Below are positions 300 through 19,318 of a stretch of 26,870 nucleotides of DNA, piece by piece (the first letter of the stretch is position 1; each line of letters starts with the position of its first letter). The notes below the pieces were generated by a model. The model was not told where the DNA came from, made no database searches, and saw only the letters and a program-made list of their open reading frames with translations. Source of the stretch: a virus; the IMG/VR virus record IMGVR_UViG_3300021185_000745, positions 1 to 26,870 of that record, one strand, 5' to 3'. The translations under genes were made by a program, and so were the position numbers.

Positions 300-464
300 A
301 TGGAAGACAATGTAGATTATAAGTTTTTTAAAATGAAAGAGGGTTTCTCTTTCGACCAATTAAGTGAGTCTGACCTTAAGTATTATAAGAAGGTCAAGAT
401 GCGTGAGGGTGAAAAAATGGCAGTGGTTGACCGTGAAAGTAAACTAGTGTATGTGGAGGAGTAA
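300..464 (+). CDS. Small hypothetical protein, 54 aa
   Basis: An ATG at 300 opens a 54-codon frame ending in TAA at 462-464. An AGGAT ribosome-binding site lies just upstream, 19 bp after the tRNA-Arg(ACG) CCA. The product is highly charged (many Lys, Glu and Asp), starts MEDNVDYKFF and shows no membrane segment or motif I recognise. Its stop overlaps the next ATG by one base, and that gene's GGAGGA ribosome-binding site lies inside this frame, so translation is probably coupled. The ordered overlap and codon-like composition support a real gene. I cannot assign a function. Confidence 0.65.
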   Translation: MEDNVDYKFFKMKEGFSFDQLSESDLKYYKKVKMREGEKMAVVDRESKLVYVEE

Positions 465-976
465 TGTCTGCTGACATACGGTTATATACAGATAACCTTT
501 TAGATACTAAAGAAATCCACCACCGTCTCATGCAGAACACTAAGTGGAAGTTCGATGGTGCGTCAGGAAGACCCGATGAAATCTTTCGTCATTGGTGTAA
601 CTATGACTATACAATAGAAAACAATTCTGATATCAAAACGGTATGGGAACATGTTCAAAGTCAAATACCAGTTAAATTAACTCCACAACGTACCATATTA
701 AATGTGTACAATCATGGAGACACATCTTATACACACATTGATGCACCCAAGTGGACTATCATTGTGTATATGAATCCCGTATGGGAAATGGATTGGGGAG
801 GATATACTGTCTTTACCAATCGACTAATGGAGAAGATTATATATGCAGCTTATCCATTGCCAGGAAGTTTTATAATGTTTCGTGGTAGTATAATGCATAG
901 ACCTACTGCGGTGGAAAGGAATGCACCCCTTCCCCGTATGGGATTAACGTTTCAATGTGAAGAAAGTGAGGAATAA
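464..976 (+). CDS. 2-oxoglutarate/Fe(II)-dependent oxygenase (prolyl-hydroxylase-like)
   Basis: This 170-residue protein has the double-stranded beta-helix signature of Fe(II)/2-oxoglutarate oxygenases. The metal facial triad is HxD at H91 and D93 with a distal His at H145 (IMHRP), and R158 sits about where the 2-oxoglutarate carboxylate is bound. The intervening WGGYTVF and PLPGSFIMF strands fit the fold. Such enzymes hydroxylate protein side chains, nucleobases or small molecules, and the substrate cannot be read from sequence. Small stand-alone members are common in marine T4-like phages. The gene overlaps its neighbours by one base on each side, placing it in the tRNA operon. The start is supported by GGAGGA at 455-460. 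A second, unrelated-looking member of the superfamily lies at 7063-7694. Confidence 0.75.
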   Translation: MSADIRLYTDNLLDTKEIHHRLMQNTKWKFDGASGRPDEIFRHWCNYDYTIENNSDIKTVWEHVQSQIPVKLTPQRTILNVYNHGDTSYTHIDAPKWTIIVYMNPVWEMDWGGYTVFTNRLMEKIIYAAYPLPGSFIMFRGSIMHRPTAVERNAPLPRMGLTFQCEESEE

Positions 977-1164
977 TGGCACAACGAGATAATTATTGGG
1001 ATTTCATGAGTAACCGAAATCAAATGGACAGAGAGGGAATGATGAGGATGAACGAATCGCCCGTAGAAACTAAAGTCCGACATCTAGAAAAACGCATAGA
1101 GACACTAGAAAAGAAACTCTCTGCAAAGGAATATATGGAAGGACAGTTGAGTCTAGGAGGTTAG
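976..1164 (+). CDS. Small coiled-coil hypothetical protein, 62 aa
   Basis: The start codon overlaps the oxygenase stop (TAATG) and is preceded by GAGGAA. The N-terminal third is rich in Asn, Asp and Met. Residues about 30-52 (KVRHLEKRIETLEKKLSAKE) form a heptad-like amphipathic helix that probably makes a coiled coil. It is the last gene of the plus-strand tRNA operon, and its stop overlaps the stop of the convergent kinase gene by four bases (1161-1164). I do not recognise a family. It could be a small oligomerising or scaffold-type accessory protein. Confidence 0.65.
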   Translation: MAQRDNYWDFMSNRNQMDREGMMRMNESPVETKVRHLEKRIETLEKKLSAKEYMEGQLSLGG

Positions 1165-1850
1165 TACTCTTCCTTCACTCCACGTTTTTTCTTCTCACCT
1201 TTAATCCATGCTTTAGCTTTAGAGTTCTCTATAGGTTTGTCTAAGAACTTCTTAACATCTCGGTATGCACGAAGGGTCTCTTGTTTGTAGTCTTTACCTT
1301 CAGAGTTATCAACAATCAACATGTTCTTCTTACCAAAGAAAGTTTGGAACGCACCAATATTCTTTTGAACGCCTTTCCAATACTTGGTAACTTCAACTTC
1401 ACCTAGTGTACGTTTACGTGTCTTATCACGTTCGATTGCAGTCTCAAGGTCTGTGTTGACAAATATCATTGCAACATCATAACCAATCTTTTGTAGGTTC
1501 TGTGCTTGTTTCTTTAACTTGTCAAAGTCTTTACCAGTACCATCAATAACAAGACCTAAACGTCCTTTGACGTACATTGCTTGTTTTACTCCAGTGAGTG
1601 CCTTTGCCTTACCACGGAGTTCTTGTCCTTTTACACTAAAGATACCTTCAGCATCCATTTCTACTCCCGCTTTCTTCATTGCGTTTTCGAATGCATCGTC
1701 AGAGTTTACAACTCTCATACCAAGTGCGGGTAGACCTGTCTTACCTACAATAAAGGACTTACCACTGCCTGGCCCGCCTGCAAGGAACACTGCTTTAAAT
1801 ATTGCGGGGTCATTGATACCCTCTCTGAGATATTGACTGAATTTAATCAT
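1161..1850 (-). CDS. P-loop kinase (zeta-toxin-like), possibly capsid-targeted
   Basis: A classic Walker A motif, GGPGSGKS, occupies residues 25-32. A hydrophobic strand ending in VIDGTG (101-106) and an Arg/Lys-rich RDKTRKRT stretch (141-148) resemble the strand and lid of zeta-toxin and polynucleotide-kinase-type NTPases. The substrate is unknown. The N-terminus MIKFSQYLRE resembles the ten-residue capsid-targeting peptide of T4 internal proteins (MKTYQEFIAE in IPIII), and LRE before G11 fits the LxE pattern cut by the gp21 prohead protease. If this is correct, the kinase would be packaged in the head and delivered with the DNA. The gene is last in a minus-strand operon behind a TATAAATA element, and its start overlaps the upstream stop by one base. 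The C-terminus is strongly basic. Confidence 0.75.
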   Translation of the reverse strand: MIKFSQYLREGINDPAIFKAVFLAGGPGSGKSFIVGKTGLPALGMRVVNSDDAFENAMKKAGVEMDAEGIFSVKGQELRGKAKALTGVKQAMYVKGRLGLVIDGTGKDFDKLKKQAQNLQKIGYDVAMIFVNTDLETAIERDKTRKRTLGEVEVTKYWKGVQKNIGAFQTFFGKKNMLIVDNSEGKDYKQETLRAYRDVKKFLDKPIENSKAKAWIKGEKKKRGVKEEY

Positions 1851-2740
1851 TAGTGTACCCTTATCTTTAACATCAAGTTTTCTAGTTGTTGCTTGAATGA
1901 ATTTTCTACCACTGTTCTTACTCTACCTTCCACAACCTCGTCATCATTTACATCAAGTACTTCTGTATTTTCTTTCTTTAAGTTTGGTGGTGTCATTATA
2001 TTTATAACTTTTTGTATTGTATCAAGAACATCTTTTCTACCAATTACTCTATCACCAATATTCTCGTTAGTATTGAATTGAACAAGTTCGTATCCTTCTA
2101 CACATAAATGTGCGAAGTCTTTCTTAAGTTCTACAGCTTTAAACTTATCACCGTCAGGAACATCAAGTAGAATCACTGCATCATATTTCTCTTCGGGATG
2201 ACCTTTAATTTTGTAATCATCTTGACCCAAACTGTAAGGGGCATCACATCGTGCAATGCTAATGTTTTCATTGTCTGCTGCGATTGCTTTATACATGAAG
2301 TCAAAGAAACTGAGATTGTTTTTTACTGTTGCGATAGTGAGTTTACCATGTGTTTGGTTGTAAGCATGTATGATAGGAAATGACGCAATACCTGAACCAC
2401 CATATGGTAGATAACTATTTTCTTGATTCAGGGTTAAACGATTAGGAAATCTACCTTCAGGGTTATCCACCCAAGAAGGAATCACAAGTACGTTTTTATA
2501 TCCTCTACAAGCAACAAAGGCATCATAGATGCATCCACCCATGTACATTGACGATACTGCACGGAACAGTGTATTGTCACTGTCATCTGTATCGATACGA
2601 AGGGATGTACCGAACGCCAAGTATCTTTTGTACATATCATTGAAGTCTTCCCACATTTCGAACTGGTAATTTCGAGGGGTCAACTGAGAAATGACATTAC
2701 CATTTTCGTCAAGACCTTTTGGTTGGTATGATAAAAACAT
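1850..2740 (-). CDS. Hypothetical protein, 296 aa, middle gene of a late-type minus operon
   Basis: This uninterrupted 296-codon frame lies between the 88-aa gene (4-bp gap) and the kinase gene (one-base overlap), so the three are cotranscribed. The protein is soluble-looking with no signal peptide. A strand-like segment, KYDAVILLDVP, around residue 185 could belong to an alpha/beta domain. The last 50 residues are acidic then amphipathic (NDDEVVEGR...). I see no nucleotide-binding loop or metal site I can name. The late-type promoter upstream and the kinase neighbour make a virion-associated or late host-interaction role possible, but this is inference from context only. Confidence 0.7.
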   Translation of the reverse strand: MFLSYQPKGLDENGNVISQLTPRNYQFEMWEDFNDMYKRYLAFGTSLRIDTDDSDNTLFRAVSSMYMGGCIYDAFVACRGYKNVLVIPSWVDNPEGRFPNRLTLNQENSYLPYGGSGIASFPIIHAYNQTHGKLTIATVKNNLSFFDFMYKAIAADNENISIARCDAPYSLGQDDYKIKGHPEEKYDAVILLDVPDGDKFKAVELKKDFAHLCVEGYELVQFNTNENIGDRVIGRKDVLDTIQKVINIMTPPNLKKENTEVLDVNDDEVVEGRVRTVVENSFKQQLENLMLKIRVH

Positions 2741-2743
2741 TAC

Positions 2744-3010
2744 TTATCCTTTGTATAATTTTTGGATGTGGTCTTCAAACTGTTCAATCTTTTCCAGTCT
2801 GTTTGGCCACAGAATATATTCCTTTTCAGGATTCTGCTTGAGGTTGTTCAATAACGGTTGAATCGCATTGAACAAACTATCTAATTTTTCTTGTGTCTCG
2901 GATGTCGATGCAGTTACGGATGATACTGTCTCTTGTGCTTTCTGCACAGCTTCCAGTTCATTCTCGTCTACTAGGGTGAATCCAAAATCGAATATCTTAT
3001 CTGTTGTCAT
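2744..3010 (-). CDS. Hypothetical protein, 88 aa, with helical/coiled-coil centre
   Basis: This first gene of the minus-strand operon starts at an ATG lying 5 bp after a TATAAATA octamer (3016-3023, minus strand). An AAAAGG that could bind ribosomes lies before the octamer, unusually far (about 13 nt) from the ATG. Residues about 15-60 are rich in Glu, Gln, Ser and Thr and probably helical. The C-terminal part (EYILWPNRLEKIEQFEDHI) contains aromatic and charged residues typical of a conserved surface. Small proteins of this type recur in marine T4-like phages, but I know no function. Confidence 0.65.
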   Translation of the reverse strand: MTTDKIFDFGFTLVDENELEAVQKAQETVSSVTASTSETQEKLDSLFNAIQPLLNNLKQNPEKEYILWPNRLEKIEQFEDHIQKLYKG

Positions 3011-3015
3011 ATGTT

Positions 3016-3023
3016 TATTTATA
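3016..3023 (-). promoter_or_regulatory. T4-type late promoter (TATAAATA) for the 3010-1161 operon
   Basis: The minus strand reads TATAAATA, the T4 late promoter consensus recognised by the gp55-type late sigma factor. It lies only 5 bp before the ATG at 3010, so a start at the usual distance would give an almost leaderless mRNA. Alternatively, the octamer is chance or the real promoter lies further upstream. Confidence 0.55.
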
Positions 3024-3035
3024 CCTTTTCTTTAC

Positions 3036-3064
3036 TTGACAAATCATGTTTCATCAAGTATAAT
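3036..3064 (+). promoter_or_regulatory. Consensus sigma-70 promoter
   Basis: TTGACA (3036-3041) and TATAAT (3059-3064) are 17 bp apart, a full match to the housekeeping consensus. It is divergent from the TATAAATA element of the minus operon and points at the 59-aa membrane protein gene starting at 3105. Confidence 0.82.
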
Positions 3065-16437: not shown

Positions 16438-17309
16438 TGGAACTTGAGTATAAACCTATACCGTCCGAGTACTATGGGGATAACACACGTTGGTTTATTG
16501 CGACTGTTATTGATGCATCACCCCCATACGGATTTGAAGGACGTGTAAAGATTCGAGTACATGGATTGCATAGTCAATCAACAAAGGATATTCCTCAGAG
16601 TGACCTTCCTTGGGCCCAATGTGTTATTCCTACAACCGAAGGTGGTGTGTCGGGTATTGGTAGAATCCCACAATTACAACCGAGTGCATTGGTGTTTGGA
16701 TTCTTTGTTGATGGAATAAACTCTCAAACACCTATTGTAATAGGTAGTCTACCGCACATTGAATTACCTAATCGCTTACAATCAGAACAAGCAAATGAAG
16801 ATATTGGAGACGATACTAAACCTAATGGTATATTTCAAAAGGTAGTAAAAGTATTTCAACCAAAAGATGTTGATGTTGAAAACGAGTTGACTGGTAATAT
16901 TAATAATCGAATTAAACAATCAAGAGAAAAAGCTACAGTTAGATTCTTTCTAAATATAGGTTACAACTTAAAACAAAGTATTGCAATTGCAGCTGGTTTA
17001 AGTATGTCTAGTGGAATGAGAACAGGAACGAATGTACAGTCAAAAGGATTGGCGAGATTCTCGGATGAAAGATATAATGATTTGAAATCTTTTTCTAATG
17101 ACTATAATAATTTCTACACACAACTAGCCTTTATTGCATATGAACTTCGAGGTAAGAAGAACGGCGCAAACATACGACTATTAAGGGCGGATAAGATTGC
17201 GGGTAAAGAAGGCACTGCAAACATAGTAGCAAGATATTACTTGAACAACACATCTCTTTCAAAACAGATTGAACTGAAGGCAAACAGATTAGTTGACAGG
17301 ATTGGATAA
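16437..17309 (+). CDS. 5: Hub OB-fold protein with lysozyme-like domain (gp5 N-terminal equivalent)
   Basis: Residues 15-110 (NTRWFIATVIDASPPYGFEGRVKIRV..., LPWAQCVIPTTEGGVSG, PSALVFGFFVDGINSQTPIVIGSL) form the OB-fold of T4 gp5/VgrG spikes, which sits on the gp27 ring. Residues about 165-290 (VRFFLNIGYNLKQSIAIAAG..., SKGLARFSDERYNDLKSF, VARYYLN) resemble the phage tail lysozyme family. Those enzymes normally carry ESG where this protein has S191-S192-G193, so the catalytic glutamate appears to be missing. Unlike T4 gp5 (about 575 aa), no beta-helix follows. It is encoded two genes later. The domain may bind peptidoglycan without cutting it. Confidence 0.72.
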   Translation: MELEYKPIPSEYYGDNTRWFIATVIDASPPYGFEGRVKIRVHGLHSQSTKDIPQSDLPWAQCVIPTTEGGVSGIGRIPQLQPSALVFGFFVDGINSQTPIVIGSLPHIELPNRLQSEQANEDIGDDTKPNGIFQKVVKVFQPKDVDVENELTGNINNRIKQSREKATVRFFLNIGYNLKQSIAIAAGLSMSSGMRTGTNVQSKGLARFSDERYNDLKSFSNDYNNFYTQLAFIAYELRGKKNGANIRLLRADKIAGKEGTANIVARYYLNNTSLSKQIELKANRLVDRIG

Positions 17310-19318
17310 TGAGTACAAAAGACGATATTAACACAAAACTAAAATCTGTATCTGTTGCGGCTGGTAAACCTAAGACAGAATATACCGTTATAACAGTAAG
17401 GGGTGTCGATGAAGACGGATTCTCTTATACTGAAAGAAAGCGTGTCCCTGTATCAGAAGCACAAGGTGACGAATACCAAGATGCAGCTATCGTTGCACAA
17501 GAAGGTAACTACGCAAAACAAGCTACCAAGGTAGGACAAAAGGCGGGTGAAGTCAATGGTGGAGTATTATCTGTCGATGAACCTGGCGAAGAAGGTGAAG
17601 TAATTCTCAACGAAAGTATTGGTGAGGTTACAGATGATGTTGGTCTTGATGGTCTTGTAGACCCCACTGTTAATCTTAACTATGGGCCAGGCGTTCCGAC
17701 ATTTGACTATTTTGAGATTGATGAAAATGGAGTTCAACAATTTCTGCCCGACTCGGATATGATAAATGGTGCTCTCACTGCAACAAAAGAAGGTGGTGAT
17801 TCCGCACAACCTTTGAGTGGTATTCTAGATAGTCTGACGGGACTAGGAAGTGCGACAGGTAAACTTATTAATAAGAACTCAGGACTTGCAGTAGTTGGTG
17901 CGGGTGGTATCAGTGGTGTCCAAGCAGGAATCGATGCTGGTGTTGCGGGTGCTAACCAACTCGTATCTGAAGTAAAAGATGCAGTTGCAAATGTAGGTAG
18001 TGTTGCTGATGTGGGACAAATGGCAAATGCAGCTCAAGATGCCGCTATGAATGCAATCAATGATGTTGCAAGTAATCTTACATCTATTCCCACGTTTGCT
18101 CCAGGCGCTAGTCTTGATAACATAACTCCCGACTCGTTATTGGAACAAGTAAATAATATCTCAGGGTTTGGTGCTTTGTCTGCACTCACAACACAGGCAA
18201 AGAATACACTGTCTAAGTTTCCTAGTGTTGAAAGTTTCATGGATAAGGCAAAAGACCTTGTTTCAGATGTCACAGCATTGGCAGATGATATTACAGATTT
18301 TAACACGAATATCACATCACAAATAAACAAGGGTCTTGGTGATGCTGCTGGTGTACTTCAGGATATCACAGAAGGTATAACAGGGAAGGCAGAAAATACA
18401 ATTAAAGGTCTTGCGGGTTCAAGTGGTGTTGATATTCCAAAAGCGAAGGTGAACGAACTCGTAGCAAACGTTGCGTCCGAAGAACCACCAAAGGTTGCAA
18501 AAACAATTCAGACAACAACAGCAACTAATGAACAAGTTAGTCCTAGAATGCAGACTGTCGTTGAGGAAACAAAAGACGTAACGTCTACTCAGGACTTGAC
18601 AAATAAAGTTGAGAATAAAGCCCGAGAAGAGGGTATCCCCGAAGAAGAGATTGTGGCAACAACCGAAGTAATTAAACGTGCAGATGCCGAAGTAAAAAAT
18701 CTAGATACCACAGTATCAGGTTCGAATGTTATTGATGCGGAGTTCTTCGAAGAAAGTAGACCTATTGATGCTGATACACAGAAGTGGAGTGGTAGAGATA
18801 CTAAGAGTGATGCATTTACTTACATATCTTCGGTAGAAGAACTTGATGCAGAGATACGTTCAATAGAAAGAGTTCTTGACCAAGTTGTAATACATGCAAC
18901 CGAAACAACTACGGATAAGAATATTGGTTCTATTGAAATAAACAATATACAAAAAGATTTAGGGTTTGATGGTATTGGATACCATTATGTAATTAGAAGA
19001 GACGGTAGACTACAACGTGGTAGACCTATCAATAAGGCGGGAGAACATATTCCTGCTTTAGACAAAACATCTATTGCAGTAGTGTTAGTCGGTGGACTTA
19101 ACTGTTCAGCTGGAGAACCTAATACAGTTTCGTTTAGGTCAGCACAATCTTTCACTGTACAACAGTATAACACACTTGAGAAATTATTGCAATCTTTTTA
19201 TCGAAGATATCCTGGCGGTAAAGTGAACGGACACAATGAAATCGATGATAACGAATTCGACCCATACTTTGACGTTGAAGATTATATCGAAGCGACATTT
19301 AGGAAAACAAACGGATGA
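17309..19318 (+). CDS. Tail-associated N-acetylmuramoyl-L-alanine amidase with long N-terminal region
   Basis: The C-terminal domain (about 520-669) is a type-2 amidase that should cut the amide bond between muramic acid and the stem peptide. Zinc ligands are H529 (VVIHAT), H642 (GHNEID) and D651 (FDPYFDV), the His-His-Asp set of AmpD rather than the His-His-Cys of T7 lysozyme. Y558-H559 (GYHYVIRRDGRL) marks the second active-site strand. The first 500 residues are Gly/Ala/Asp-rich with amphipathic helices (about 200-345) and an acidic stretch (415-470), probably a tether or structural part of the hub. It is coupled by overlaps to the hub protein (1 bp) and to the spike gene (ATGA, 4 bp), so it is most likely a virion enzyme that thins the wall during infection. 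Confidence 0.82.
   Translation: MSTKDDINTKLKSVSVAAGKPKTEYTVITVRGVDEDGFSYTERKRVPVSEAQGDEYQDAAIVAQEGNYAKQATKVGQKAGEVNGGVLSVDEPGEEGEVILNESIGEVTDDVGLDGLVDPTVNLNYGPGVPTFDYFEIDENGVQQFLPDSDMINGALTATKEGGDSAQPLSGILDSLTGLGSATGKLINKNSGLAVVGAGGISGVQAGIDAGVAGANQLVSEVKDAVANVGSVADVGQMANAAQDAAMNAINDVASNLTSIPTFAPGASLDNITPDSLLEQVNNISGFGALSALTTQAKNTLSKFPSVESFMDKAKDLVSDVTALADDITDFNTNITSQINKGLGDAAGVLQDITEGITGKAENTIKGLAGSSGVDIPKAKVNELVANVASEEPPKVAKTIQTTTATNEQVSPRMQTVVEETKDVTSTQDLTNKVENKAREEGIPEEEIVATTEVIKRADAEVKNLDTTVSGSNVIDAEFFEESRPIDADTQKWSGRDTKSDAFTYISSVEELDAEIRSIERVLDQVVIHATETTTDKNIGSIEINNIQKDLGFDGIGYHYVIRRDGRLQRGRPINKAGEHIPALDKTSIAVVLVGGLNCSAGEPNTVSFRSAQSFTVQQYNTLEKLLQSFYRRYPGGKVNGHNEIDDNEFDPYFDVEDYIEATFRKTNG

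Follow-up and report, generated by a model that had tools for sequence, protein, structure and literature searches.

A T4-type capsid-targeting leader and prohead-protease site predicted on a P-loop kinase of a marine T4-like phage

Why should a phage kinase begin with a peptide resembling the one that addresses T4 internal proteins to the head? The question is raised by an ORF of the window, i.e. the whole stretch of DNA analysed here, a fragmentary virus record of 26.9 kb in which tail genes are present. The first-pass annotation had proposed a P-loop kinase on this ORF, and this is confirmed: the product scores above the Pfam cut-offs for Zeta_toxin (PF06414, 38.5 bits for a cut-off of 22.3, 1.1e-9) and AAA_33 (33.3 bits for a cut-off of 27, 7.2e-8) and matches PHROG 12810 (4.8e-43), while a PADLOC search with the kinase gave no match. 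For the two other ORFs of the operon no Pfam or PHROG family was found, and the antitoxin families sought in them with Pfam did not match either; the 296-aa ORF has a homologue at 16 and the 88-aa ORF at 33 of the 149 relative loci listed. The element TATAAATA, also pointed out at the outset for this operon, is real: the window holds seven copies for 2.1 expected, a count reached by none of 100 shuffles, and copies precede both the operon and the kinase. The arrangement fits a late expression of the kinase operon from these copies. The features are collected in Table 1.

Table 1. Kinase operon of the window: genes, motifs and predicted elements (positions in the window)
Feature	Position	Strand	Remarks
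P-loop kinase ORF (P0001)	1161..1850	minus	229 aa; ATG at 1850; protein starts MIKFSQYLREGINDPAIFKAVFLAGGPGSGKS
Predicted capsid-targeting leader MIKFSQYLRE, lost on maturation	1821..1850	minus	residues 4, 7, 8 and 10 as in T4 IPIII
Predicted prohead-protease cut, E10/G11 (LRE|G)	1818..1823	minus	conservation and gp23 sites of relatives
Walker A GGPGSGKS, residues 25-32	1755..1778	minus	invariant in 27 aligned sequences
NSDD, residues 49-52, candidate catalytic Asp51	1695..1706	minus	aligns with NRDD of T4 PseT (hhalign)
Upstream ORF, same operon	1850..2740	minus	296 aa; end overlapped by kinase ORF
First ORF of the operon	2744..3010	minus	88 aa
TATAAATA, T4-type late promoter element	3016..3023	minus	5 bases 5' of the ATG of the first ORF of the operon
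TATAAATA, second copy	1999..2006	minus	about 150 bases 5' of the kinase start

Read in the same register as MKTYQEFIAE, the start of T4 IPIII, the first ten residues of the kinase agree with it at residues 4 (F/Y), 7 (Y/F), 8 (L/I) and 10 (E), and they end in an L-x-E cleavage pattern; both statements of the first-pass annotation hold. In T4 IPIII, according to the accessible part of a T4 review (PMC9026906), the first 10 residues are sufficient as a targeting sequence, residues 4 and 7 acting in targeting and residues 8 and 10 in processing. The same part of that paper states that gp21 cleaves after L/I-x-E and that the T4 internal proteins and Alt, which bear such leaders, are ejected. We wrote the strict leader pattern as M..[FY]..[FY][LIV].E. 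Inside the proteins of six T4-like genomes it occurs at 1.0e-4 to 2.4e-4 per position; at this rate the test of 131 start codons in the window should yield about 0.01-0.03 strict matches, and it yielded one. T4 itself has two strict matches, the two genes at 65.4-66.4 kb that start with MKTYQEFIAE. In the AF2 model of the kinase, residues 1-12 have a pLDDT below 50.

A first scan for relatives of the kinase gave 72 loci and 70 usable rows, L064 and L076 being left out as incomplete. The kinase is N-terminal in 58 of these rows and lies inside longer ORFs in 12; the full leader pattern is present at 47 of the 58 non-fused loci. In all 32 distinct N-terminal leaders P1 is E and P3 is either L or I, and 25 of them have F/Y at 4 and 7 together with L/I at 8, the rest being variable. 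Two more scans, one of viruses and one of genomes, brought the set to at least 167 loci, i.e. at least 131 distinct ones after removal of 31 duplicates and 5 incomplete loci. Among the 131 distinct loci listed P1 is E in 130 and P1' is G in every one, P3 being L (71), I (38), V (12), M (7), F (2) or T (1). The one locus lacking E before G is, by our reading, an outlier of 25% identity (L269). The kinase is N-terminal at 108 of the 131 distinct loci listed, with the full pattern in 72 and altered spacing or residues in 36. The genome of HTVC008M, where the kinase leader is MIPFILKE|G, has neither a strict nor a relaxed match.

In the relatives E and G are kept but the remaining leader positions are variable, which speaks against a product of chance, and a fortuitous likeness to T4 is rejected on this conservation together with the unrelated protein families that bear the leader (see below). 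From these alignments the leader is almost certainly real and under selection. The E|G pair could be kept partly for the kinase fold, the AF2 model being poor at this point. A cellular origin of the family was considered and set aside: the genome scan gave 18 relatives, in metagenome or single-cell assemblies, with no clear cellular family among them. A homologue also exists in a jumbo phage, Atu_ph07 gp053 (L004:5275-7608), where the kinase begins at about residue 250 of 778, after VTE|GVNDKHIFKA; its gene sits in the cluster of CDS 31-76, for which the accessible text on this phage gives 29 proteins confirmed by MS, a figure for the cluster as a whole.

The same leader is found on proteins unrelated to the kinase. 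The 1378 mechanically called genes of the 72 first-scan loci, some of which are near copies, hold 77 strict matches for 3.2 expected: 53 kinases, 9 DUF6267 proteins, 9 members of the NMNAT-like/polyprotein cluster and 6 others. Only the 24 non-kinase matches are independent of the selection, since the loci were chosen for the kinase. The search for a shared N-terminal motif, proposed earlier as a check within the phage itself, was run in relatives and was positive: the leader is on 24 of the 33 distinct DUF6267 ORFs of the loci listed, and NMNAT-like proteins carry it too. Among the NMNAT-like ORFs at the kinase loci listed the strict leader is on only 5 of 29, many of these ORFs being fused or variant; in S-SM1 the leader was sought on DUF6267 and is absent. 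In one relative genome (G001) six of the seven relaxed matches fall in one gene cluster of 5.5 kb (27.5-33.0 kb), and the kinase lies 13 kb away. The six are DUF6267, NMNAT-like, a DUF5824-type protein (by our reading of its sequence) and three others. At 31373-31741 the same genome also encodes a separate basic protein, MLSFKDLISE|VLDMQQRRK..., which may condense DNA in the head. A relaxed match at 139627 in Melnitz-3 is, in our judgement, false: the ORF is clamp-loader-like and its reading starts at an internal TTG; lambda has one relaxed match for 0.2 expected.

The prohead protease (S77, gp21) and gp23 are both found in the same eight of ten relative records, the two misses being partial records. 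T4 gp23, from which an N-terminal piece of 65 residues is removed according to the accessible part of PMC9958956, is cut at FLTE|AE; four of the five aligned relatives read FLTE|TP, FLSE|AA, FLGE|IA and FLSE|AA, and in the fifth (G002) E is not kept in the cut-site column, QLNE|V lying nearby.

That the leader serves as a packaging tag is supported by virion proteomes in the literature, the MS support coming from leader-bearing proteins other than the kinase. As far as the accessible text of each paper goes, S-SM1 virions contain T4-GC190, a 'citidylyltransferase' (Sullivan et al., PMC3037559), and an NMNAT-like protein is reported in the virions of S-SCSM1 (PMC9602691), S-SZBM1 (PMC9146016) and S-CREM2 (PMC10665884). 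GC190 corresponds to SSM1_190 and starts with MKKFSAFLNE|A; the NMNAT-like ORFs of S-SCSM1, S-SZBM1 and S-CREM2 start with MKSFLQFLKE|A, MRFRQFIIE|A and MKNFSSFLTE|A respectively. The leader is thus on the virion NMNAT-like protein in all four phages examined, which belong to the Kyanoviridae. The strict pattern is on 3 of the 221 genes of S-CREM2, and all three products are among its 52 MS proteins (Fisher p=0.012): a SAM hydrolase, an APH-like kinase and the NMNAT-like protein, for which the accessible data of the paper give 19, 21 and 3 peptides respectively. With the relaxed pattern nine matches were obtained, six of them in the MS list. A protein annotated 'Cas9' (28 peptides) was left out of the strict count because its LRFASFMAE|A sits at residues 17-25 of the annotated protein; judging from this sequence, the annotated start may be too far upstream. 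Leader-like peptides are seen in the S-CREM2 records (L158/L159) on ORFs 6, 12, 13, 14, 15 and 154, internally for 'Cas9'; leader-like starts are those of the SAM hydrolase, the APH-like kinase, the NMNAT-like protein and two small hypothetical proteins.

The window protein is an intact P-loop kinase lying between polynucleotide kinases and zeta toxins. An alignment of 27 kinases shows no variation at K31, S32 (Walker A), N49-S50-D51, D103, R141, R145 and R147, and EGxxDPxIFKA is also kept in it as a block. Given these invariant residues catalysis is likely, and from its sequence the window kinase is in all likelihood enzymatically active. The only T4 match of the kinase family profile is PseT (hmmsearch E 0.029; hhalign probability 87.6%). 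The AF2 model of the kinase has a pLDDT of 76.6 (57-67 for the other four models) and is weak around the P-loop. Its comparison gives PSTK 3adb (Z 9.3, rmsd 6.0, 164 aligned), bacterial PNK 4gp7 (Z 8.1, rmsd 3.9, 147 aligned), zeta toxin 1gvn (Z 7.8, rmsd 4.2, 157 aligned) and PezT (Z 7.5): the scores of PSTK, PNK and zeta toxin nearly tie, and the substrate is not readable from the fold. Foldseek with the same model returns 4mde (E 1.3e-3). Thus the 'zeta-toxin-like' label of the first-pass annotation stands for the Pfam family, whereas by fold polynucleotide kinase and PSTK are as near.

The partner DUF6267 (PF19782) has K56-x-D-G, E367-G and K381 invariant in 21 sequences. Its alignment displays the ligase-like motifs KWDG, EG(Y/F)VAI and KLVDR, in an order that we take to be that of nucleic-acid ligases. 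Against the PDB, a sequence search with DUF6267 gave no match and a profile search chance-level matches only. Its AF2 model is weak (pLDDT 72.1, pTM 0.58). In the fold comparison T4 RNA ligase 2 comes first (Z 6.5, rmsd 3.2, 101 aligned), a Z below 8 that may reflect a common arrangement, followed by many RNA and DNA ligases; Foldseek alone returned nothing at E 0.001 for this model. The modelled fold weakly suggests that DUF6267 is a ligase-like enzyme.

About a sixth of the relatives have other domains fused in front of the kinase, with the [LIV]xE|G junction kept. It is C-terminal to longer regions in L063, L065-L068, L070-L075 and L077, with junctions such as DLEE|G, NLEE|G, EVEE|G, SVEE|G, NVQE|G and ALNE|G. 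One of these ORFs (L066, 1523 aa) has a leader-type start of its own, MRFTKFVNE|K, and contains DUF5824, as does that of L071. Kinase and NMNAT-like protein are joined in a single ORF in L071, L072 and L077, the Pfam domains being cytidylyltransferase-like and Zeta_toxin in L071 and L077. Four other kinase ORFs (L224, L230, L243 and L248) end in strongly lysine/arginine-rich modules, and two (L231:6001-8244 and L232:6001-8247, 748-749 aa) combine leader, kinase, basic linker and DUF6267. Polyvalent (PolyVal) injected proteins are defined as multi-domain polypeptides with conflict-type domains; the window protein is a single domain with a leader, some of its relatives being multi-domain. Internal cut-site repeats were considered as proof of polyprotein processing and dropped: the observed/expected counts of [LI].E in six polyproteins (11/9.0 in L066, 11/6.4 in L071, 10/5.7 in L072, 14/10.4 in L077, 4/3.4 in L063 and 1/2.1 in L074) show no clear excess, and the mean excess is similar in background genes. 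It is therefore the junction that argues for polyprotein cutting. The few ORFs with a conspicuous count include some that adjoin gp23, where the scaffold gene is placed.

The kinase bears a T4-like address-and-cut tag, so its probable fate is to enter the head along with the DNA, to be trimmed there and to reach the next cell. We propose that a marine T4-like (Kyanoviridae-type) phage would use it as an internal head protein, carried by its first ten residues into the prohead core late in infection. A gp21-type prohead protease would cut after Glu10, and the mature kinase would begin with GINDPAIFKA; the kinase would be packed with the DNA, then ejected into the next host. In relatives it would be part of polyproteins with NMNAT-like, DUF5824, lysine/arginine-rich or DUF6267 modules connected by [LIV]xE|G joints. 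That the kinase is packaged appears highly probable from the MS of other leader-bearing proteins, and a cut after E10 is credited to the same high degree; the two together are quite likely, and an ejection into the next host, by analogy with T4, is likely. The capsid-targeting peptide and protease site suspected at first are in this way supported by conservation, by the unrelated families that bear the leader, by the gp21 and gp23 of the relatives and by the virion MS of other proteins.

Once in the host, and within minutes of the onset of infection, the kinase would phosphorylate a hydroxyl group, either a 5'-OH or another of nucleotide type, and nucleic-acid end healing together with the ligase-like DUF6267 would be our first choice. 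We lean weakly to end healing over a toxin because some relatives fuse the kinase to DUF6267, and because kinase and ligase-like enzyme bear the same head tag, sometimes on one chain; end healing as the function of the kinase is a tentative assignment. Its extension is doubtful: marine T4-like phages would pre-load through T4-type leaders a nucleic-acid repair kit of PNK-like, ligase-like DUF6267 and NMNAT-like proteins, some as a leader-tagged polyprotein cut by the prohead protease, and this kit, ejected with the DNA, would repair ends left in tRNA or DNA by the cuts of host defences, ahead of any phage gene expression.

Other activities were weighed against end healing. A zeta-type toxin carried in the head would phosphorylate a UDP-amino sugar and so weaken the wall or slow the host, aiding entry or takeover. 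The Pfam Zeta_toxin score and the fold matches to 1gvn and PezT are in its favour, as is the sea siphovirus P-SS2, whose ORF030 consists of MuF and Zeta_toxin domains and averages 96.5 peptides in virion MS according to the accessible text on this phage; a zeta-like kinase domain has therefore reached a virion before, though by a different route. For zeta-like kinases in MuF fusions, the accessible part of the polyvalent-protein paper moreover predicts injection and an action on the wall. But PNK and PSTK score equal or higher by fold, the two operon genes match no antitoxin family and the fusion to DUF6267 does not point to a wall target, so that we regard a toxin as unlikely. A nicotinamide-riboside or nucleoside kinase paired with the packaged NMNAT-like protein, and restoring NAD early in infection, is quite unlikely. 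NadR has kinase and NMNAT halves that act together. The kinase adjoins the NMNAT-like gene in HTVC008M, where this partner weakly matches NadR (18.2 bits for a cut-off of 341), the single ORFs of L071, L072 and L077 point the same way, and an NMNAT-like partner is present in 10 of the 11 records searched, T4 being the miss. The partner nevertheless also occurs in phages without the kinase, and the kinase itself lacks a NadR kinase match among its PDB and NCBIfam matches.

Two further readings bear on the packaging and delivery that we prefer. The kinase might be packaged and yet work in the particle or during head assembly, perhaps on DNA ends while the genome is being packaged, instead of in the next host. 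The lysine/arginine-rich fusions would hold it on DNA, and T4 internal proteins are situated among the packed DNA in the accessible text; against this, the T4 internal proteins and Alt with such leaders are ejected (PMC9026906, accessible part), which makes a role confined to the particle very unlikely. Finally, the leader might be a part of the kinase fold or another binding element, its likeness to T4 coincidental and the MS of the other proteins due to contamination. The conservation of EGxxDPxIFKA as a block could be read in this way, and the authors of two proteomes allow for contamination in the accessible text, for S-SCSM1 (PMC9602691) and for S-CREM2 (PMC10665884), the latter considering that carry-over as a source of the MS signal is not excludable. 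However, the same leader is on unrelated families, conservation is mainly at the positions critical in T4, and three of three strict leader-bearing S-CREM2 proteins are in the virion list. A leader foreign to the capsid is highly improbable.

The kinase has several close parallels among known systems. It resembles T4 IPII and IPIII by its ten-residue N-terminal leader, positions 4/7/8/10, the L/I-x-E cut and the late-type promoter; it differs from them in that the cargo is an intact P-loop kinase and that the same type of cut joins polyproteins in relatives. The SAM hydrolase, APH-like kinase and NMNAT-like protein of S-CREM2 virions share with it the Kyanoviridae setting and the leader, and were found by MS, but they are of other enzyme families, and the accessible part of the paper mentions no targeting leader (PMC10665884). 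P-SS2 ORF030 and the MuF/zeta polyvalent proteins likewise have a Zeta_toxin domain in a virion protein and, in the accessible text, a predicted injection; ORF030 is however a siphovirus head protein with MuF, with no E preceding the aligned G. T4 PseT has the P-loop, the NxDD motif and an RNxxR-type lid in common with the kinase, which in contrast lacks the phosphatase half and is about 20% identical, the start of PseT being of the MKKIILTIGC type and untagged. With zeta toxin and PezT it shares the Pfam family and the fold range, but not an antitoxin family in the operon. In the open-access literature we found no report of capsid-targeting leaders in marine T4-like phages.

Read in this way, a second phage family follows the principle of the T4 internal proteins, its cargo being an enzyme that also comes in polyprotein forms. 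Internal proteins of T4 were established by coliphage work; here the same leader marks enzymes across Kyanoviridae-type marine phages, the list comprising the kinase, DUF6267, the NMNAT-like protein, the SAM hydrolase and the APH-like kinase. The leader offers a way to separate packaged cargo from contamination in virion proteomes, and a sequence test for 'auxiliary metabolic' enzymes that act at the moment of entry.

Some other features of the window were seen in passing. A sigma-70-like promoter at 3036-3064 on the plus strand, TTGACA-17-TATAAT with 12 of 12 consensus positions perfect, is directed toward plus-strand genes, diverging from the late TATAAATA that precedes the kinase operon. 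The ORF at 464-976 (plus) is labelled 'DNA endonuclease V' through PHROG 274, a label that looks wrong because Pfam gives a 2OG-Fe(II) oxygenase. A long ORF of the baseplate region (17309-19318, plus) has an amidase domain at its C-terminus.
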